From the NCBI GenBank assembly GCA_035533075.1, contig DATLUO010000171.1, forward strand, positions 1-41,601: DNA of 41,601 bases. The letters run 5' to 3'. The notes under the pieces were generated by a model. That model ran no database searches and had not been told where the DNA came from. It saw nothing but the letters and a program-made list of their open reading frames with translations. The translations under genes were made by a program, and so were the position numbers. Of this stretch, positions 3,212 to 14,246 are shown one piece after another; the first letter of the stretch is position 1; the number at the start of each line of letters is the position of its first letter. The DNA is from Pirellulales bacterium. GTDB lineage: Bacteria; Planctomycetota; Planctomycetia; Pirellulales; JAICIG01.

Positions 3212-3649
3212 ATGAGGTGTGTTCGGCCAATTCGCATTTCCGCGCTGGGCGTCGTGTGCTTGGCAGCCAATTGGTTGGCCGAAGCGACGGTGCTGGCGAG
3301 TTGCGGCGATTACGTGATGGTGGGCGGCCATGCTCAACACGGCCACTCGCCCGCGGGACATTTCGCGCCCGTCTCCACCGGCACAGACGGTCACGCCGCC
3401 GCCGGTCATCGCGGCGAGCGGTTGCCATGTCACGGGCCAAATTGCTCCCGCCGCTCGGCTCCCGACCCCCAGCCGCCGGTTACGCCGCCCACCCATCATC
3501 ACGATTGGGGTTGGACGACGGACGCGACCCCGGAGGTTATCGTCAAGCCGCTCGGCTTCGTTATCTGGCAGCCAATCCCTGCCACGCTTCTTAGGACCGA
3601 TCTGGTCTTTCGCCCACCTCGGCGCACGGGTCATGCCGTCGTTGGCTGA
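3212..3649 (+). CDS. His/Cys-rich secreted protein with CGDYVMVGGH motif (copy 1)
   Basis: This 145-residue protein has a signal peptide (MRCVRPIRIS, a hydrophobic core, then a cleavage-like LAS). The mature protein begins SCGDYVMVGGH, runs into a His-rich stretch (HAQHGHSPAGH, DGHAAAGH) and has a CHGPNC block followed by Pro-rich and HHH sequence. A paralogue at 5191-5559 shares the signal region, CGDYVMVGGH and CHGPNC. No characterised family is recognised. The clustering of His and Cys suggests metal binding outside the cytoplasm, an inference supported by the downstream CusBA-type genes. Its last 60 residues do not match copy 2. Confidence 0.7.
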   Translation: MRCVRPIRISALGVVCLAANWLAEATVLASCGDYVMVGGHAQHGHSPAGHFAPVSTGTDGHAAAGHRGERLPCHGPNCSRRSAPDPQPPVTPPTHHHDWGWTTDATPEVIVKPLGFVIWQPIPATLLRTDLVFRPPRRTGHAVVG

Positions 3650-3856: not shown

Positions 3857-5047
3857 ATGCCACGTTCTCGTCATGCTTTTACCCTCATCGAACTGTTGGT
3901 CGTCATCAGCATCATCGGCATGCTGATTGGTCTCTTGCTCCCCGCCGTGCAGCAGGCCCGCGAGGCCGGCCGCCGCAATACCTGCAACAACAACCTGCAC
4001 AACCTGGGCATCGCCCTGCAGAACTTCGCCAGCAAGAGCGGCGGGCGGCTGCCCGGCTGGCGCGAGAATATGACCTTGGCGCCCGAGCCGGTGCTCCAGG
4101 GGAATTCCATTCCGCAATATCCGGTGAGCTGGGTCGTGCCGCTGTTGCCATTCGTCGAACGAACGGACCTTTATGCTCTCTGGCGCAACGGCAGTTTTCT
4201 CACGGCCAATCCGATGGGTTCGTCGCCGAATCCATCGATCGATCCGACGATCCAAGGCTATCTCACGCTGCTTGTTTGCCCGAGCAACCCGGCGACGCAG
4301 ACTATTCCGCCGCCCTGCGCCTACGTGGTGAACGCCGGGCAAAAGGACACCGAGGCCATGTTTGCGGGCGGCATGGGCGGGATGCAAACGATGGCGGTCT
4401 CGGCCGATTACGCGGCCAACGGCGTGTTCTTCGACTGCTTCCAAGACTCGATGCAGTCGATGATGCTCGACATTCCCATGGCCCAGACGTGCAACATGGG
4501 CCCGCAGGTCGACATGACCATGGACTATCTCACGGTGCATGACGGCACGTCGCTGACCTTGATGCTCTCGGAGAACCTCAACGCGGGCAGCTATTGCGAT
4601 CCCAACGCTCAAGGACTGGCCGACTCGAGCATGGGCGGCGGCGGAATGGGCGGCATGGGGAGTAATCTGCCGTTCGCCGTGCTCGAACCGCTGCAAGGCT
4701 TCGTTTGGTGGGGCGACATGGACGCGGGCGGCAACACCACGCCACCTTACGCGGCGGGCGTGCAATATGGCCGGATCAACGGCCCGTCCGATGTGGCATC
4801 GAACAATAACCCAAACTACCCCTATACGAATGCCCGGCCCTCCAGCAATCATCCCAGCGGCGTGAACATGCTCTACTGCGACGGCCACGGCCGTTTCATG
4901 TCGCAGGACGTCGATTACCGGGTTTTCTGCCTGCTGATGAGCAGTTGGGGCCGGCAGGCGATGCCGCCCGGAGCGATGGCCGCACCCAACACGACCGTTT
5001 GGAACTACCTGCGCACCGCCGTCGTCGACGAAAGCGCGGTCCAATGA
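3857..5047 (+). CDS. DUF1559 pseudopilin-like protein, Met-rich
   Basis: The 396-residue protein starts with a type IV prepilin-like signal ([20 protein letters not shown]), the planctomycete DUF1559 hallmark. The body has the usual family blocks, such as [16 protein letters not shown], and the closing [22 protein letters not shown]1559 proteins are thought to be assembled or exported like pseudopilins; their roles are mostly unknown. Unusually, residues of about 168-268 hold some 16 methionines in clusters ([22 protein letters not shown]) plus several cysteines, reminiscent of Met motifs that bind Cu(I) or Ag(I). It follows the His/Cys-rich gene and precedes a second copy of the same gene pair. 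Confidence 0.9.
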
Positions 5048-5190
5048 ATGTCGCCATTCTCCAAAAAAAGGGTTCCGGCCGCTTGATTTGTGCAAATCCG
5101 TTTGTTAGGATGGCGGGCGAAATCGGGTTTCTCTTTCGATCTTGGTTGGGCCTTCCATCGGCCCCGCGTGCGATGCTTGTCGGCAAACCA

Positions 5191-5559
5191 ATGCGACTGG
5201 GGCAGCTTGTGCGGATGAGTGTCGTGCTCGCCGCGGCGGTCGCGTTGTCGACGTCGTTCGATGCCAAGACCGCCGTTGCAAGCTGCGGCGACTACGTGAT
5301 GGTCGGCGGCCACGGGCATGCCAACCACGACCATTCGATGCCCGGCACACCTACCTGCCACGGCCCGAACTGTCACCGGCAGGCACCGTTGCCCGTGCCG
5401 CCCACGAAGGGGTTGCCGAACATGCCGCCGGCCGATGCAGCGTGCTGGCGGCAGGGCGATGGTCCATCGCGACCGCCGTTGTGCGGCCGGCTTATTGAGG
5501 AGCGTCTTTCTTTGGCAGACGGGCATTCTCTGCCGCTGCTGCGGCCTCCGTGTCTCTGA
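5191..5559 (+). CDS. His/Cys-rich secreted protein with CGDYVMVGGH motif (copy 2)
   Basis: This 122-residue protein starts at MRLGQLVRMS, chosen because this signal peptide lines up with that of copy 1; in-frame ATGs also exist at 5044, 5110 and 5173. The mature part begins SCGDYVMVGGHGHANHDHS and contains CHGPNCH. It is Pro-rich and ends with a Leu/Arg-rich tail. A further shared patch (TTTGAGGCTGCGC) lies downstream of both copies, at 3741 and 5596, indicating duplication of more than the coding region. A metal-binding role is inferred from the clustered His and Cys and from context. Confidence 0.65.
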   Translation: MRLGQLVRMSVVLAAAVALSTSFDAKTAVASCGDYVMVGGHGHANHDHSMPGTPTCHGPNCHRQAPLPVPPTKGLPNMPPADAACWRQGDGPSRPPLCGRLIEERLSLADGHSLPLLRPPCL

Positions 5560-6275: not shown

Positions 6276-7322
6276 ATGTTGCGTCATCGAAACGGTTTTA
6301 CCCTGGTCGAGTTGCTGGTGGTCATCGCCATCATCGGCATTTTGATCGCTTTGTTATTGCCGGCGGTGCAGGCCGCCCGCGAATCGGCCCGACGCGCCCA
6401 GTGCGTCAACAACCTCAAGCAGATCGGCATCGCCATCAACAACTACCACGACATTCACAAATCCTTGATGTTCGGCAAGGGCCCCAGTTGGCCCGCCCCC
6501 ATACCCGTCTACGCACGCTGGTCGCAGCACGCCATGCTGCTGCCGATGATCGAGCAGCAAGCACTGTATGACAGCCTCGACTTCCGCTGGCCGCCGGCGA
6601 CGCCGGGCATGGCCGGCGTGATCAATTTCATGCCTCCCTACTCCAATCCCAACGGCATCAACAACCTGGCCTGTACGGTGCGCGTGCCCGGCTTCTTCTG
6701 CCCCTCCGATGGCACCCAGGTGAATCCAAACTGGCCGGGTCAGAATAACTATGCGGCGAACCAGGGAAGCTGGCTCTGCGACCGTCTCGACGACCAAGAC
6801 CCGAACGCCATCATCGCGCCCGGCGAGGCGCAATCGGGCATCTTCGGCTATTTGAGCCATGTTCGCTTTGCCGCGATTCTGGACGGGCTGAGCAACACGG
6901 CGCTGTTCAGCGAAAAGATCCGCGGCAACGGATCTCCGAACCCGCGCAGCGACATGTTCATTATCCCTAACCAGACGTCGCTGCTGGCGACCTGGCAGAC
7001 CTGCAATGCCATCGTTCCGGCGACCGCCACGCCCCTGACGAGCAAATGGGGGGCGAGCTGGTGCATGGGTGAAAACTGCTGCACGCAGTACAACCACGTG
7101 GCCGGGCCCAACCAGTTTACCTGCGGCGGCATCGGCTTCCCCGGCACGATGAGCAACATGTCGATGCAGGTCTCGCCGGGAAGCCGTCATCCGGGCGGGG
7201 TCAATCTGTGCATGGTCGACGGCTCGGTGCGGTTCGAAAGCGAGAACGTCGACGTATGGACCTGGCGGGCCATCGGGACGCGCGCCGGAGAGGAAGCCCT
7301 CAACCTGGCATCGCAGCCCTAG
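6276..7322 (+). CDS. DUF1559 pseudopilin-like protein (second copy)
   Basis: The ATG at 6276 has a good AAGGTGA Shine-Dalgarno at 6264-6270. The 348-residue product begins MLRHRNGFTLVELLVVIAII, then the family blocks AARESARRAQCVNNLKQIGI and, near the C-terminus, SPGSRHPGGVNLCMVDGSVRF. It is a standard-length DUF1559 protein without the methionine clusters of its relative at 3857. The lipoprotein gene starts 20 bases after its stop, so it is likely the first gene of an operon running into the CusBA-type genes. Its function is unknown; a surface or periplasmic structural role is inferred. Confidence 0.92.
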   Translation: MLRHRNGFTLVELLVVIAIIGILIALLLPAVQAARESARRAQCVNNLKQIGIAINNYHDIHKSLMFGKGPSWPAPIPVYARWSQHAMLLPMIEQQALYDSLDFRWPPATPGMAGVINFMPPYSNPNGINNLACTVRVPGFFCPSDGTQVNPNWPGQNNYAANQGSWLCDRLDDQDPNAIIAPGEAQSGIFGYLSHVRFAAILDGLSNTALFSEKIRGNGSPNPRSDMFIIPNQTSLLATWQTCNAIVPATATPLTSKWGASWCMGENCCTQYNHVAGPNQFTCGGIGFPGTMSNMSMQVSPGSRHPGGVNLCMVDGSVRFESENVDVWTWRAIGTRAGEEALNLASQP

Positions 7323-7342
7323 CGCAGCTTGGAGGTGACGAG

Positions 7343-7837
7343 ATGACGCGGCGATGGTCGATCGTGGAATTGGCGCTGGCGGCGCTGCTGTTGCCTTGCG
7401 TGGCGGCGTGCGGCCGGCCATCGGGCTACGAGCGCTACGTGCCCAGCGCCGAACGGGCTCAGGAGGCGCTCGACCAGGTGTTGGCAGCCTGGAAGAGTGG
7501 TGAAACCGTGGAACCGCTGACGTTGAAATCGGCGCCGATCACCGTTCGCGTGGCCGACTCGACTCGGCGACCGGGTCAACGTTTGGTCGCCTACGATCTC
7601 TTGGGCGAGGTGTCTGGCGAAGGCCCGCGGACGTTCGTGGTGCGGCTCAATCTCGACGATCCCAGCGACGAGCAAGAGGTGCGTTATTACCTGGTCGGGA
7701 TCGACCCTCTATGGGTCTTTCGTCAGGAAGACTACGACGCCGTGGCCCACTGGGACGCTTGCGCGGGGGCGGAGGAGGGAGCGAGAGAGACGGAGCGAAG
7801 GAAAGACGGAGAAAGGGGGAGAGAATCTACGAGATGA
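7343..7837 (+). CDS. Small lipoprotein, relative of the one at 13854
   Basis: GGAGGTGAC at 7331-7339 is a near-ideal ribosome-binding site. The 164-residue protein has a lipoprotein signal (LLPCVAACGRP) and the blocks YVPSAERAQEALDQ, LAAWKSGE, LVAYDLLG and GIDPLWVFRQEDY. The lipoprotein at 13854-14246 carries the same blocks, so the pair are paralogues flanking the CusBA-type genes. The last 20 or so residues are low-complexity Glu/Arg coded by a purine-rich tract that looks like an addition. Its TGA overlaps the ATG of the adaptor gene (ATGA), indicating translational coupling. An envelope role linked to the exporter is inferred. Confidence 0.8.
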   Translation: MTRRWSIVELALAALLLPCVAACGRPSGYERYVPSAERAQEALDQVLAAWKSGETVEPLTLKSAPITVRVADSTRRPGQRLVAYDLLGEVSGEGPRTFVVRLNLDDPSDEQEVRYYLVGIDPLWVFRQEDYDAVAHWDACAGAEEGARETERRKDGERGRESTR

Positions 7838-9441
7838 ACATACCATCGACACGTACGGCGGAAAAACCCGCACATCGCTCCCTCCCTCCTTCGCCTCCTC
7901 CCTCATTCTCCGCACGGTGGGTGTTGCGCGTCGCCCAGGTTCGGCTGCGTTTTCTGTTCGTGCTGCTGGCCGCATTTTTGATCGTCGGCAAGTGGCACGT
8001 GCTGCGCAATTATTGGGACACGCTTACCATGCCCAGCCCGAGCAAGATGCTCAGCGGCGGCATCAACGGGGAGACGGAGTATTTCTGCCCCATGTGTCCC
8101 GGCGTGATCTCCGGCTGGCCGACGAAGTGTTCGGTGTGCAACATGCCGCTGGTCCGCCGCAAAAAAGGCGGCGCTCAGCAGCTTCCCGACGGCGTGCTGG
8201 CGCGGATGCAGATTTCGCCTTATCGCGTGCATTTGGCAGGCATCCAGACCGCGCCGGTTGAATATCGCCCGCTGGCGCGCGAGGTCGTGGCGCGGGGCAT
8301 GGTGGCTAAGGAGGCGTCAGGGGCGGGCGAGGATGCGTCAGGCGCAACCGGATTGGATGACGCCGTGGCCACGATCACTGCGGAGATCGATCAGCGAGAG
8401 ATTCCCTTCGTGACAGCGGGCGCGACCGCGACGGTTGTTGCCGATGGGGAACTGGCCGGTGAGCCACGCGAAGGCCGTGTAACGCAGGTCGCCCCCAAGG
8501 TCTCGCCCCAAACGCACCGCGTACACGTGGAGCTGGCGGCGGCCAACCCGCGTGGCGAGCTTTGGCCGGGCATGCAGGTGACGGTGCAGATTCGCCGGCC
8601 GATCTGCGAGCTGGAACCGTTTCGTTCGCTGCCCGCCGACCCGCCGCCGCCGGCCGAAGGGGAGTTGCGAAAGTTGTACATCTGTCACGAGCATCCCAGC
8701 CTGCTGCGCGAAAAGAGCGGGCGATGCCCCGAAGACAACAATTTGCTCATGGACCTGCCGCTCGCGGACCTTCAGCGTGTGGCTTGGTGGTGTCCGATGC
8801 ACCCCGACGTCACCGCCAGCGAGCCGGACAAGGTCTGCGAGGCGTGCAACGGCATGCGTCTCGTGCCGCGAATCGTACAGTATCGCCCGCCAGGCCAGGT
8901 GTTGGCGGTGCCCGAAAGCGCCGTGATCGACCTGGGCGATCGGCGCGTGGCGTATGTTGAGCAGATGCCCGGCATGTTCGATGCGTTGGAGGTCGTCGTG
9001 GGGCCGCGTTGCGACGGCTACTACCCGGTGGTCCGCGGCCTGCTGCCGGATCAACGCGTGGCTGCCACGGGCGCCTTCCTGCTCGACGCCGAGACGCGGC
9101 TGAACCCCAGCGTGGCCGCCGGTTATTTCGGCGCGTCGCTCGCGAGCGCGTCGTCGGCGGGCCCCTCGACGACGGCGGCGGCACCGTCCGGCAAAGAACC
9201 TTCCGCGAAAGAGGCGGCGGCAATTCGTGCCGCGCTCGACAAGCTTTCGTCGGACGACCGCGCGTCGGCCGAGCGGCAGAAACATTGTCCTATTACCGGC
9301 ATGCCGCTCGGTTCGATGGGCGCGCCAGTGAAGATCAACCTGAAAGCCCACACCGTCTGGCTCTGCTGTGCCGGTTGTGAAGCGGAAGCCTCGGAGCAGC
9401 CCCACAAAACCCTGGAAAAACTAAAACAGCGTAGCCGTTAG
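7834..9441 (+). CDS. CusB-like periplasmic adaptor of a heavy-metal RND exporter, with multiple metal-binding modules
   Basis: The 535-residue protein starts at the ATG overlapping the previous stop. A membrane anchor lies at about residues 36-54. A heavy-metal-binding (HMBD) module follows at about 82-108 (EYFCPMCPGVISGWPTKC). The central barrel has EIDQREIPFVTAG and LWPGMQVTVQIR, as in HlyD/CusB membrane fusion proteins. Two more Cys-rich modules follow near 281 (YICHEHPS, degenerate) and 317 (WWCPMHPDV, then CEACNGM). A C-terminal YHS-like piece (CPITGMPLGSMG, then LCCAGCEAEA) closes it. CusB-type adaptors link the inner-membrane pump to an outer-membrane channel and pass on Cu(I)/Ag(I). 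No channel gene is visible in the window. Confidence 0.9.
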   Translation: MNIPSTRTAEKPAHRSLPPSPPPSFSARWVLRVAQVRLRFLFVLLAAFLIVGKWHVLRNYWDTLTMPSPSKMLSGGINGETEYFCPMCPGVISGWPTKCSVCNMPLVRRKKGGAQQLPDGVLARMQISPYRVHLAGIQTAPVEYRPLAREVVARGMVAKEASGAGEDASGATGLDDAVATITAEIDQREIPFVTAGATATVVADGELAGEPREGRVTQVAPKVSPQTHRVHVELAAANPRGELWPGMQVTVQIRRPICELEPFRSLPADPPPPAEGELRKLYICHEHPSLLREKSGRCPEDNNLLMDLPLADLQRVAWWCPMHPDVTASEPDKVCEACNGMRLVPRIVQYRPPGQVLAVPESAVIDLGDRRVAYVEQMPGMFDALEVVVGPRCDGYYPVVRGLLPDQRVAATGAFLLDAETRLNPSVAAGYFGASLASASSAGPSTTAAAPSGKEPSAKEAAAIRAALDKLSSDDRASAERQKHCPITGMPLGSMGAPVKINLKAHTVWLCCAGCEAEASEQPHKTLEKLKQRSR

Positions 9442-9448
9442 CCGCCGC

Positions 9449-9516
9449 ATTTTGGATTTTCGATTTTGGATTTTGGATTGTCCGGAATCCAAAATCGAAA
9501 ATCCAAAATCCAAAAT
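9449..9516. repeat. TTTTGGATTTT inverted repeat between adaptor and pump genes
   Basis: Two 31-bp arms (9449-9479 and 9486-9516) made of ATTTTGGATTTTCGATTTTGG-type units are complementary except at two positions, with a 6-nt loop. The AT-rich palindrome occupies almost the whole gap between the two genes. It resembles interspersed repeats often seen in planctomycete genomes (general recollection, not checked). Confidence 0.85.
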
Positions 9517-9534
9517 CTGTCACCCCGAACCCTC

Positions 9535-12500
9535 TTGATCGACTGCATCATCGAACTCTCGGTCCGTCACCGCTGGGCGGTGATCGCCGCCGCGGTCGTG
9601 CTTGCGCTGGCGGGCGTCTACGCCGTTTACCACACGCCGATGGACGCCATTCCCGATGTGTCGGAAGACCAGGTGCTGGTCTTCGCCGACTGGCCGGGCC
9701 ACAGCCCCCGTGAGATCGAAGATCAGGTCACGTATCCGCTTTCGAGCGGCTTGCAAGGTTTGCCGGGGGTGCGCGTGGTGCGGTCGTCGAGCGAGTTCAA
9801 CTTCGCATCGATCAGCGTTATTTTGCAGGACGGCGTCGATTTCTATTTTGCCCGGCAGCAGATCGGCGAACGATTGCTGCGCGCCGGCGAGTCGTTGCCC
9901 TCCGGAGTCAAGGCATACCTTGCTCCCGACGGCGCCGCGACCGGCCAGATCTTCTGGTACACGGTCGAAGGCGAAGGCTACGACCTGGCGCGGCTGCGAT
10001 CGATCCAGGACTGGTACGTGCGCGGCCAGTTGGCCGGCGTGCCCGGCGTGGCCGAGGTGGCCAGCGTCGGTGGCCGCGTCATGGAATACCAGATCGAGCT
10101 CGACCCGCGGCGATTGGCCGAGTCGGGTCTCACGCCGGGCATGGTCACGCGCGCCGTGGCCGAGGCCAACCAGTCCGTCGGCGGGCAAGTCATCGAAAAG
10201 GCCAACGCCGAGTACTTGGTGCGCGGAGTCGGCTGGCTCGGTAGCCGATTGGTGGGAGAGAGCGAGGGAGAGAGCGAGAGAGGGAGGAATACGGCGGACC
10301 TCGTCCGCCACGATCTGGAAGAGGTTTTGATAACGTCGGCCAGCGGGCAAGCGGTGCGGCTTGCGGACGTGGCTGCGGTGTCGGTGGGATCCAATTTCCG
10401 CCGCGGCGTGTTCGAGATGCACGGCAACGAGGCGGTCGGAGGCGTCGTACTGATGCGCTACGGCGAGAACCCGCTGGAAGTCACCCGCCGGCTACGCGGC
10501 AAGATCAGCGAACTATCGACCGGACTGCCGCCGGGCGTGCGCATCATACCGGTCTACGACCGCACGCCGCTCATCACCAGTGCCGTAAGCACGGTCACGA
10601 GCGCCCTGCTGGAAGCGATCGTCACTGCCAGCCTCTGTGTGTTGCTGGTGCTCTGGCACGTCCGCACGTCGTTGGTGATTGCCGTTACGCTGCCGCTGGC
10701 CGCGCTGTCGTCGTTCGTGGCCATGTGGCTCTTGCGGCGGTTGGGAATCATCGACGTCCAGACCAACATCATGTCGCTGGCCGGCATTGTGGTGTCGCTG
10801 GGCGTGCTGGTCGACTCGTCGATCGTGATGGCCGAGAACGCCATGCACACGCTGCGAGGCCATTTCGGCGACCGGCCGGTGCGGGGCGACGTGCGGTGGC
10901 TGGTGCTGCCGGCCTGCCGCACGGTGGGCCGACCGATTTTTTTCTCGGTCGCCATCATGCTGGTCAGCTTCTTGCCGGTGTTTTGCCTGGGCGGCATTCA
11001 GGGCAAGATGTTTCAGCCGCTGGCGCTCACGAAATCGCTGGCGATGCTGGCCGTCGCCGTGCTGTCGATCACGCTGGTGCCGGCCCTGGCCAGCGTTTTC
11101 ATTCGCGGCCGGCTTCGCGATGAACGCTCCAACTGGCTGGTACGCGGCTTCGCGGACGTGTACCGGCCGGTGCTCGACTACTGTCTCAGCCATCCGGCGC
11201 CGTTGGTGTGGGTGCTCGCCGCTACGTTTCTCATCGGCTGTGCCCCGTTCGGGCATCGGGGCCTGCTGCTGGCGGTGCTGTTCGTTTTCATCGTGCTCTT
11301 GGGCGCCATGACGAAAACCTGGCGCGCGGCCGTCGGCTGCACGGTCAGTCTGGCGCTGGTGGCGCTGGTGGCCGAACAGAATATGCGGCCCTTGCTCTGG
11401 CAGAAGATGCCGCCCTTGAATGAAGGCATGGTGATGGACATGCCGATCACCGTGCCGCGCGCGTCGATCACCGAGGCCGCCGATGACCTCAAGGCCCGCG
11501 ACATGGTACTCTGCCGGTTTCCCGAAGTGGCGATGGTAATGGGCAAGGCCGGCAGGGCCGAGACGCCCACCGATCCCGCGCCCGTCGACATGATCGAGAC
11601 GATGGTCGAATTCCGCCCGCACGGGTTGTGGCCGAAGCGCCGGCTGACCGAACGCGATGCCCGGCGGCAGACCCAGGCCGTGCTGGCGGCACTGGTTGCC
11701 GAGGGAATGATCGAACCGCCGGCCGACGGGACGGCACAGGCGGCGCTGGTCGATGAAGCGACCAGCGAAGCGCTCGGCCGATTTGACGGCCTGATGCGAG
11801 AATACGCCTATCTGCGCAACGCCGAGTTCGAGGAGTCGCTGCCGCAAAAACTGGCAAAATGGCTGGTGGACGGCCTGGTCGCCCGACTCCAGCGGCAGGG
11901 CGTGTTTGAGCGCCCGCCGAGCGACGGCGAAATCGCCCAAGTCGCGCAGCGGCTGGTGCCCCATGCCGACCACCACCTGGCCGTTTCGCCACGGCTCGAC
12001 GACGTGACGCTTTTGGCACGGCACGCCGGACACAACCTTGCCGCGCTGGGACTGGTGCAGCCGGACGCTCAGCTCTTCGACGACCGGCCGCCGCTGGGGC
12101 AGCGTGCGTTCGACTTGGCCGCACGCGCCCTGGGCAAAACGCCGCCGACTTTTTTCACGCGCTTGACCAAGGATCTGCTGGCACATTACGCCGCGGCCTG
12201 GAGCGAGCACGTGCGCGAGCTGAACGCCCAGTTGTTTGCTCGCGGGACGGAGAGTTATACGCGGCTGGCCATCGAAGAAGTGCTGGGCCGCTCGACGCTG
12301 CGCGATGCGAAGCTGGCCGACTACCTGGCGCAGGTCCGCCGCTTTCGCTCTCGTCCGCCGCCGCAACACCGCTCCCATCACCACGTCGGCAGCTCGATGA
12401 ACATGCCACCGCCGCCCGACGTCGCGCCGCAACCCAAGTTGAAGGCCGTGCAGGAAAGCCTGGCCGCTTCCATGCGTTGGCGGGCACTCTTGTGGCGCTG

Positions 12501-13851
12501 CGAGCCGGCGGATTTGTCCGATCCCGGCGGAGAGCTGGACCGAGCGCTGCAGATGCCCGGCTGGGCGAATGTCTGGACGCGGCCGATTCAGAACCGCGTC
12601 GACATGTTGTTTACGGGCGTGAACACCGATATCGGCGTGCGCGTGCTGGGCCGAGAGCTCGACGATGTGATTCGCGCGTCGGAAGAAATCGCCGCCGTGT
12701 TGATGGGGGTTTCGGGAACGGAGTATGTCATGGCGGAAGCGGTCCGCGGCAAGGGCTATCTGGAGATTTGCGTCGATCGTGACAAAGCGGCGCTGCTCGG
12801 AGTCAGCATCGGCGAGGTCAACGACGTGATCGAGACGGCGGTGGGCGGCAAACTGGCCACGTCGACGGTTGAGGGCCGCGAGCGTCACGGCGTGCGCGTG
12901 CTTTACCCGCGCAACTGGCGTGAAGACGAAGAGACCATTCGCAGCTTGCCGGTGCCGCGACGGGCGACGACTGCCGACACTCTCCGCTCTGTAGGGAACG
13001 CACTCCGTGGCGTTCCGCGGCGGCAGGGTCGGCCTTCTCTCGCCATTCGCGGAACGCCACGGAGTGCGTTCCCTACAGACACCCTTCCGCTGGCCGAGGT
13101 GGCCGACGTGCGGATCGTGCAGGGGCCGGCCTCGATCAAAAGCGAGAACGGGCTGTTGCGGAATTACGTGCGACTGAACGTACGCGGACGCAGCGCGACG
13201 GACTTTATCGACGAGGCGCGGCGGACCCTTGCCGACCGGGTGACCTTGCCGTCGGGGGTGTATGTGGAGTGGACCGGGCAATTCGAGCATGACGCGCGGG
13301 CCATTCGCACGCTCGCCTTCGTGCTGCCGCTGGTGATCGCCTTGATTCTGCTGATTCTCTACTGGACCTATCACGATCTGGCCGACGCTCTGTTGATGTT
13401 GCTGGCGGTGCCGGGTGCGCTGGCCGGAGGCGTAATCTTTCAATGGCTGCTGGGCTACGATTTTTCGGTCACGGTGCTGGTGGGCTATATCGCCTGTTTC
13501 GGCATGGCCACGTCGACGGGCATCATCATGCTGGTCTACCTGCGCGAGGCGGTGGCCAGGCGCGGCGGGCTGGAGCAGATGAACCTCGCCGAGCTGCGCC
13601 AGGCGGTGATGGAAGGCGCCGTCCATCGCCTGCGGCCAAAGCTGCTCACCGAAGGCACGACGGTCCTCGGTCTGGCGCCTCTGCTATGGGCGACCGGCAC
13701 CGGGGCGGAAGTGATCAAGCCCATGGCCGCCCCGGTGCTGGGCGGCATTTTAATCGCCGACGAAGTCATCGATCTGTTGTTGCCGGTGCTGTTTTATTGG
13801 GTCCGCCGTTGGCGGAAAACAGGCGGCCTTTGGCCTTCGACACCAAGGTAA
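9535..13851 (+). CDS. CusA-like heavy-metal efflux RND pump with large extra periplasmic segment
   Basis: The TTG at 9535 gives LIDCIIELSVRHRWAV, the usual CusA start; the frame upstream is repeat sequence. The product is about 1438 residues against roughly 1040 for CusA. Family marks include MDAIPDVSEDQVLV, the proton-relay-type GVLVDSSIVMAEN at about residue 423 and GKAGRAETPTDPAPVDM near 670. Porter blocks from about 1007 (MPGWANVWTRPIQNRVDM) and GTGAEVIKPMAAPVLGG near the end follow. It exports metal ions from the periplasm using the proton gradient. Oddities: about 285 extra residues near 718-1003, an apparent extra membrane pair near 555-620, a Glu/Ser insert near 241-252 and a repeat-coded stretch at 1152-1181. 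Confidence 0.9.
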   Translation: MIDCIIELSVRHRWAVIAAAVVLALAGVYAVYHTPMDAIPDVSEDQVLVFADWPGHSPREIEDQVTYPLSSGLQGLPGVRVVRSSSEFNFASISVILQDGVDFYFARQQIGERLLRAGESLPSGVKAYLAPDGAATGQIFWYTVEGEGYDLARLRSIQDWYVRGQLAGVPGVAEVASVGGRVMEYQIELDPRRLAESGLTPGMVTRAVAEANQSVGGQVIEKANAEYLVRGVGWLGSRLVGESEGESERGRNTADLVRHDLEEVLITSASGQAVRLADVAAVSVGSNFRRGVFEMHGNEAVGGVVLMRYGENPLEVTRRLRGKISELSTGLPPGVRIIPVYDRTPLITSAVSTVTSALLEAIVTASLCVLLVLWHVRTSLVIAVTLPLAALSSFVAMWLLRRLGIIDVQTNIMSLAGIVVSLGVLVDSSIVMAENAMHTLRGHFGDRPVRGDVRWLVLPACRTVGRPIFFSVAIMLVSFLPVFCLGGIQGKMFQPLALTKSLAMLAVAVLSITLVPALASVFIRGRLRDERSNWLVRGFADVYRPVLDYCLSHPAPLVWVLAATFLIGCAPFGHRGLLLAVLFVFIVLLGAMTKTWRAAVGCTVSLALVALVAEQNMRPLLWQKMPPLNEGMVMDMPITVPRASITEAADDLKARDMVLCRFPEVAMVMGKAGRAETPTDPAPVDMIETMVEFRPHGLWPKRRLTERDARRQTQAVLAALVAEGMIEPPADGTAQAALVDEATSEALGRFDGLMREYAYLRNAEFEESLPQKLAKWLVDGLVARLQRQGVFERPPSDGEIAQVAQRLVPHADHHLAVSPRLDDVTLLARHAGHNLAALGLVQPDAQLFDDRPPLGQRAFDLAARALGKTPPTFFTRLTKDLLAHYAAAWSEHVRELNAQLFARGTESYTRLAIEEVLGRSTLRDAKLADYLAQVRRFRSRPPPQHRSHHHVGSSMNMPPPPDVAPQPKLKAVQESLAASMRWRALLWRCEPADLSDPGGELDRALQMPGWANVWTRPIQNRVDMLFTGVNTDIGVRVLGRELDDVIRASEEIAAVLMGVSGTEYVMAEAVRGKGYLEICVDRDKAALLGVSIGEVNDVIETAVGGKLATSTVEGRERHGVRVLYPRNWREDEETIRSLPVPRRATTADTLRSVGNALRGVPRRQGRPSLAIRGTPRSAFPTDTLPLAEVADVRIVQGPASIKSENGLLRNYVRLNVRGRSATDFIDEARRTLADRVTLPSGVYVEWTGQFEHDARAIRTLAFVLPLVIALILLILYWTYHDLADALLMLLAVPGALAGGVIFQWLLGYDFSVTVLVGYIACFGMATSTGIIMLVYLREAVARRGGLEQMNLAELRQAVMEGAVHRLRPKLLTEGTTVLGLAPLLWATGTGAEVIKPMAAPVLGGILIADEVIDLLLPVLFYWVRRWRKTGGLWPSTPR
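12988..13079. repeat. Perfect 32-bp inverted repeat inserted in the RND pump gene
   Basis: The arms 12988-13019 and 13048-13079 are exact complements (starting TCTGTAGGGAACGCACTCCG) separated by 28 bp. The element is translated within the pump as SVGNALRGVP and, on the other arm, RGTPRSAFPTD, without breaking the frame. It looks like a REP/MITE-type insertion. Confidence 0.9.
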
Positions 13852-13853
13852 AT

Positions 13854-14246
13854 ATGCGACGCATCTTGTTCCTAAGCCTGTTCGTCTTCGTTGCTCCTCC
13901 CGGTTGCCAACGCGCCGACGTGAAGGATTATGTGCCCGCCGACGAAGTGGCCCGCCAAGCGCTGACGACGGCGCTCGATGCCTGGAAGGCGGGCAAGACC
14001 CTCGATCAGATCGGGGCCACCAGCCCGGCCGTCAACGTCCAGGACATCCAATGGCGCGACGGCAAGAAGTTGACGGCCTATGAAATCGTCGGCCCAGCGG
14101 CCAGTGACGATCAAAACCGGCGTTTTACGGTGAAGCTTACGTTTCAGGGGGCTGCCGCGCCGGTGGAAACGACCTACGTCGTGCTCGGCAAGGATCCGAT
14201 CTGGGTGTTCAGTGCCGAGAGCTACCAACGGACGTCCGGACTGTGA
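13854..14246 (+). CDS. Small lipoprotein, relative of the one at 7343
   Basis: The ATG lies 2 bases after the pump's stop codon, so it is surely co-transcribed. The 130-residue protein has a lipoprotein signal (LFVFVAPPGCQRA, lipid-anchored Cys near residue 18). It then shows YVPADEVARQALTTALDAWK, LTAYEIVG and GKDPIWVFSAESYQ. The same order of blocks occurs in the lipoprotein upstream of the adaptor gene. No known domain is recognised. Having one copy on each side of the pump and adaptor suggests a conserved accessory part of this exporter, possibly envelope-anchored, but no activity can be assigned. Confidence 0.85.
   Translation: MRRILFLSLFVFVAPPGCQRADVKDYVPADEVARQALTTALDAWKAGKTLDQIGATSPAVNVQDIQWRDGKKLTAYEIVGPAASDDQNRRFTVKLTFQGAAAPVETTYVVLGKDPIWVFSAESYQRTSGL

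Follow-up and report, generated by a model that had tools for sequence, protein, structure and literature searches.

A helical arm at the predicted cleft rim of a planctomycete CusA-type pump that may have left the CusCBA scheme

A heavy-metal pump encoded on a 41,601-nucleotide stretch of Pirellulales DNA (contig DATLUO010000171.1 of assembly GCA_035533075.1; the whole stretch is called the window here) carries an inserted domain predicted to fold as a long helical arm. The insertion falls between the second and third methionines of the metal-binding triad in sequence, and comparison with CusA supports a position for the arm at the rim of the substrate cleft. We tentatively propose, at slightly less than even confidence, that the arm gathers metal for a resistance-nodulation-division (RND) pump which no longer works by the CusCBA tripartite scheme. 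The sub-clade to which the pump belongs is read as off the CusCBA plan because its adaptors have lost the lipoyl and hairpin domains, no channel gene lies nearby and the proton-relay residue Glu939 is replaced.

The pump frame is unbroken. Its open reading frame (ORF) call begins at a TTG codon, and the real start may be slightly downstream. The protein scores 870.4 bits against TIGR00914, above the cut-off of 701.45, and E. coli CusA is its top PDB match (E 6.5e-202). By these sequence matches it is a member of the CusA/CzcA heavy-metal RND family. The features of the pump, with the basis for each, are as follows.

9466..13851, forward strand: CusA-type heavy-metal efflux (HME) RND pump with arm, 1461 aa (TIGR00914 score; CusA the best PDB match)
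11257..11379, forward strand: extra predicted transmembrane helix pair after TM7, residues 598-638 (length against CusA; hydrophobic segments; AlphaFold2 (AF2) helices)
11440..11442, forward strand: Met659, equivalent to CusA M573 of the Cu(I) triad (alignment)
11590..11598, forward strand: Met709 and Glu711, equivalent to CusA M623 and E625 (alignment)
11635..12531, forward strand: inserted arm domain, residues 724-1022 (E. coli CusA alignment; AF2 model of the insert alone)
11728..11895, forward strand: first long arm helix, 56 aa, about 84 Å if straight (AF2 insert model; 1.5 Å per residue)
11923..12129, forward strand: tip module of short helices, absent from the arms of family f22 (AF2 insert model)
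12151..12288, forward strand: second long arm helix, 46 aa (AF2 insert model)
12364..12420, forward strand: His/Met-rich low-confidence loop at the arm base, QHRSHHHVGSSMNMPPPPD (predicted local distance difference test (pLDDT) 50-59)
12433..12483, forward strand: return helix from the His loop to the cleft rim (AF2 insert model)
12604..12606, forward strand: Met1047, equivalent to CusA M672, the third triad Met (alignment)
13513..13515, forward strand: Ser1350, in place of CusA Glu939 of the proton relay (alignment)

In the alignment to E. coli K-12 CusA, the 299 residues of the insert take the place of just 10 in CusA (638-647), which makes the pump about 289 residues longer at this site. 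An initial annotation, made from the letters of the window, had put about 285 extra residues in the periplasmic part of the pump, which agrees closely; its figure of about 25 CusA residues at the site was slightly high. It had also described a continuous frame of normal base composition. The insert has a GC content of 0.681 and the remaining gene one of 0.647; at third codon positions the values are 0.80 and 0.82. We take the insert as real, and no artefact, because a homologous segment occupies the same position in dozens of independent genomes. This conservation rules out a mis-assembly or frame error, and the chance that the segment is such an artefact or a neutral low-complexity expansion is practically negligible. 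In favour of an artefact there is just a palindromic repeat, which lies in another part of the pump gene; against it stand the recurrence of the arm at one site across dozens of assemblies, a confidently predicted fold and the normal composition. Nor is the arm a common feature of well-described HME-RND pumps. CusA has none, and neither does an ordinary CusA-like pump of the same genome (L007).

Modelled alone with AF2 from a 55-sequence alignment, the insert folds with a mean pLDDT of 87.7 and a predicted template modelling score (pTM) of 0.81. Helices take up 206 of 305 residues (68%), in line with the largely helical domain first described. The elements run in the order long helix, short helices, long helix, His/Met loop, and helix back to the core. 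From this order and the helix lengths, the two long helices are predicted to form a hairpin whose tip holds the short ones. The tip module is optional, since the arms of family f22 do without it, and near-invariant residues are few in the arm. No convincing match was found in Pfam, NCBIfam or PDB sequences. At the level of fold, Foldseek against the PDB gave E values of 0.6 or worse, VIA gave a best Z of 5.1 over 105 residues, and a viral library gave no match. The arm was thus not assigned to a known domain by sequence or by fold. A model of the C-terminal half of the pump reached a pTM of 0.45, with PC1 and DC poorly modelled and RND pumps as the best structural matches, as expected; it was not used for geometry.

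The position relative to the metal path comes from homology with CusA. CusA residues M573, M623 and M672, together with E625, bind Cu(I), and the cleft lies between PC1 and PC2, with M672 on a horizontal helix that moves with cleft opening (PMC8092243). The insertion point falls between CusA R637 and E648, and so between M623 and M672. It is three residues before N651, which served as the marker of cleft opening in published CusA simulations (PMC8092243). This placement supports the early suggestion that the domain sits near the metal path. All three triad methionines are present in every row of the pump alignment. The proton relay D405-E939-K984 is incomplete in the window pump, where the Asp and Lys equivalents are present and Ser1350 stands at E939. 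The same Asp and Lys are kept throughout its sub-clade.

A second departure from CusA lies in the membrane domain. Between TM7 and PC1 the window pump is 45 residues longer than CusA and has three hydrophobic segments against one, and the C-terminal-half model puts helices at the extra segment. The pump is therefore predicted to have 14 transmembrane helices, not 12 as in a CusCBA-type pump. An extension after TM7 is present in 74 of 78 scored arm pumps. A paralogue in the same genome (L016) has about 141 extra residues there, with more hydrophobic segments. In the basal pumps L071, L073 and L083 the arm is shorter, at about 227 aa, and the added helix pair is missing, which shows that one feature can occur without the other; these arms possibly represent an early stage.

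The arm is a recurrent domain at one fixed site. Homologous segments of about 190-390 aa occur at the same position across genomes, which bears out the initial view of a true domain insertion. The closest family member, whose pump is 61% identical, has the same insertion. At a strict threshold, the whole pump was matched in 30 of 297 genomes of the order, in 25 of 122 genera, and the presence of the insert was checked in the alignments. The arm profile was also matched in 24 of 392 genomes of other classes in the phylum. The full arm set holds no stretch conserved enough for a motif scan, so a closer subset was used. A scan for two arm motifs across 84,980 bacterial and archaeal species returned 61 loci. 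All loci with an assigned phylum belong to Planctomycetota and three are unassigned, in a scan that under-represents the window's sub-clade and could miss divergent arms in other phyla. Scans of viral contigs and plasmids returned no arm, and the palindromic repeat of the pump gene lies outside it; a mobile-element origin of the arm was rejected.

Some relatives differ in size. The L016 paralogue (contig C194, 4889-9673) has 1594 aa and a longer arm, is paired with a normal adaptor, and carries a loop rich in Met and His between DC and PC2. Arm pumps L113, L121, L124, L143 and L114 lie in open frames of 1600-2100 codons; some of these have arms of up to about 390 residues, and others are possible fusions or late starts. 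Within the window pump gene itself, a perfect 32-bp inverted repeat with a 28-nt spacer occupies window positions 12988-13079, in frame. It codes for VGNALRGVP...RGTPRSAFP, at a place where relatives have a Met/His-rich loop. The repeat half-site has 173 copies in the genome and the reversed control has none. We read it as a palindromic repeat element located within coding sequence.

In a maximum-likelihood tree of the pump core, built by a quick method with the insert columns removed, the window pump groups with L054, L038, L066 and the pumps of f22, a different planctomycete family of the same class, with 100% support. Some branches are long, and the inner order of this sub-clade is unsure. 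Its members share the loop at the arm base. The initial annotation had pointed to a His/Pro/Met patch, which corresponds to residues 967-985, and this is not a random run: a His-His pair is found in this loop in 17 of 17 sub-clade members and in none of 61 other arm pumps. The spacing between loop and core changes little despite strong divergence of the linker. At the Glu939 position, all sub-clade members that cover it have Ser or Ala. Glu939 is also replaced in two arm pumps outside the sub-clade, L074 and L076.

The adaptor and the genes around the pump differ in the same sub-clade. The neighbouring features are listed here.

6276..7322, forward strand: DUF1559 pseudopilin-like protein of the cassette (PF07596 and N_methyl)
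7337..7837, forward strand: small putative lipoprotein of the cassette (no Pfam match)
7711..9441, forward strand: CusB-like adaptor lacking the lipoyl and alpha-hairpin domains (Pfam; alignments)
8671..8880, forward strand: Cys-rich double HMBD-type insertion of about 70 residues in the adaptor, ends approximate (alignments)
13860..14246, forward strand: paralogue of the small lipoprotein, directly after the pump (34% identity, E 3e-20)

Pfam finds HMBD twice in the window adaptor and HlyD_D23 only at profile positions 147-213 of 214. Just 8 of the 113 residues of the lipoyl/hairpin segment align. This segment is missing from all sub-clade adaptors and retained in the others except L188, a short mis-called ORF. 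All sub-clade adaptors except L185 carry about 70 extra residues with two more HMBD-type Cys motifs. In family f22, 29 of 45 genomes have the short adaptor.

No outer-membrane channel gene lies within the 41.6-kb window. Among loci of at least 12 kb, an outer-membrane factor (OMF)-like gene occurs in none of the 16 from the sub-clade and in 23 of the 44 that hold other arm pumps (Fisher p 1.5e-4, relatedness ignored). In near-complete genomes, among the matches listed, which do not include all weak ones, the nearest channel gene is hundreds of kilobases from sub-clade pumps and 3-9 kb from three arm pumps with full adaptors.

The cassette genes follow the sub-clade closely. A DUF1559 neighbour, 53-67% identical over its length, is present at 18 of 19 sub-clade loci and at none of 66 other arm loci. 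Small-lipoprotein homologues beside the pump give the same counts (18/19 against 0/66). The genomes hold roughly one DUF1559 gene per 69-155 kb, which is too sparse for chance to explain the 18 of 19. In the cassette protein C268-C269, C283 and M292/M295/M297 are conserved in 18 of 18 sequences. The window also encodes two related, small, secreted-looking His/Cys-rich proteins (ASCGDYVMVGGH...CHGPNC; 3212-3649 and 4945-5559), each close to a DUF1559 gene. These 'CGDYVMVGGH' peptides were not found in the sub-clade relatives and are therefore left out of the system.

In current descriptions an RND pump forms part of a closed duct that spans both membranes, the pump itself being compact with its cleft freely open to the periplasm. 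In the mechanism we propose, the arm would offer a docking site and gather metal at the entrance of the cleft. It would bring metal donors to the cleft, either the Cys-rich HMBD- or YHS-like domains of the adaptor or other periplasmic carriers. In the sub-clade, the flexible His/Met loop at the arm base may serve as a lure for Cu(I)/Ag(I) or similar ions near Met709 and Met1047. Pump, short Cys-rich adaptor, lipoprotein and pseudopilin-like protein would most likely form a local system, one that moves metal or hands it over within the periplasm with no closed duct through the outer membrane. Metal binding by the arm or the His loop, and transport of Cu(I)/Ag(I), are putative. A fuller picture, in which two planctomycete lineages share an undescribed RND metal system made of a 14-helix arm pump with a His loop, no outer-membrane duct, a short Cys-rich adaptor, a lipoprotein and a dedicated DUF1559 protein receiving or shedding metal, is rather unlikely.

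Several observations weigh against the metal-gathering proposal. Pumps that lack the His loop and have normal adaptors carry the arm too, so metal capture need not be its basic function. The porter domain is poorly modelled, and the placement of arm to cleft rests on homology. Channel genes lie elsewhere in these genomes, the window's included, and one may be recruited in trans. DUF1559 proteins are numerous in these genomes. Each sub-clade trait probably arose once; the counts then show constancy, not many independent gains, and a strong pattern gives weak independent evidence.

The arm could instead be purely structural, bracing the trimer or clamping the adaptor with no direct metal role, the His loop being a later and minor addition. 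To this we give a substantial chance, roughly that of a strong minority view. Long helical hairpins commonly act as braces, most of the arm clade has ordinary tripartite adaptors and no His, and the arm has few near-invariant residues. Against such a brace stand the insertion at a moving cleft rim beside metal-binding residues, and a His loop held at roughly its distance from the core while the linker diverged strongly. Alternatively, the sub-clade pumps may still be tripartite, with the arm replacing the lost adaptor hairpin and reaching a channel encoded elsewhere. The hairpin was indeed lost in pumps that have the arm, channel genes are present in the genome, and BesA shows that a hairpin-less adaptor can serve a tripartite pump (PMC3807786). 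However, the arm is older than the adaptor loss and is shorter, without the tip module, in most sub-clade members. Its insertion site is the cleft rim and not the docking domain atop the pump; the lipoyl domain is lost as well, and no channel gene is linked. We consider this replacement very improbable.

It is also improbable, if marginally less so, that the sub-clade pump has lost proton coupling and, no longer a transporter, now senses metal or serves as a scaffold. In CusA, point mutation of D405, E939 or K984 abolishes transport (PMC8092243); across the sub-clade E939 is Ser or Ala, and the linkage to full adaptor and channel is gone. Yet the Met triad and the residues equivalent to D405 and K984 persist throughout, E939 is replaced in arm pumps outside the sub-clade too, and full-length retention by most genomes of a family is hardly to be expected of a degenerate pump. 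If the metal-gathering proposal is right, a domain at the entry rim, the loss of the duct-forming part of the adaptor and a replaced relay residue would indicate how far the RND design can drift. These pumps would also allow the need for an outer-membrane channel in RND metal export to be tested in a natural setting. With the cassette, one protein of DUF1559, a large planctomycete family of unknown role, would gain its first context. A literature search of papers open without subscription gave no description of the arm, of a 14-helix HME-RND pump or of the cassette.

Several known systems share part of this design. E. coli CusA and the window pump both belong to TIGR00914, have the M573/M623/M672 and E625 positions and the D405 and K984 equivalents, and are encoded in an operon with a CusB-like adaptor. 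Unlike the window pump, CusA has 10 residues in place of the arm, no extra transmembrane pair after TM7 and an intact Glu939; its adaptor is complete, with both the lipoyl and the hairpin domain, and the operon includes the channel gene cusC. Judged from sequence, the window system departs from the CusCBA type in the relay Glu, the full adaptor and the predicted number of helices. Closer to it are the planctomycete arm pumps with full adaptors (the L016 paralogue and L085-L145), which share the arm site, the transmembrane pair and an HMBD-bearing adaptor. In contrast to the sub-clade, they have no His loop, keep Glu939 and use a lipoyl-plus-hairpin adaptor; a channel gene is often near, and the DUF1559/lipoprotein cassette is absent from their loci.

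For the adaptor, the nearest parallel is Borrelia BesA, also a periplasmic RND adaptor without an alpha-hairpin, which keeps its lipoyl domain and belongs to the BesABC drug pump with the channel BesC (PMC3807786). The sub-clade adaptors differ in that lipoyl and hairpin domains were lost together and Cys-rich metal motifs were usually gained. The cassette DUF1559 protein has the N-terminal methylation motif and PF07596 domain of other DUF1559 planctomycete proteins. It differs from them in travelling with the pump and in its constant C-C...C...M-M-M pattern, which the other DUF1559 protein of the window (3857-5047) lacks.

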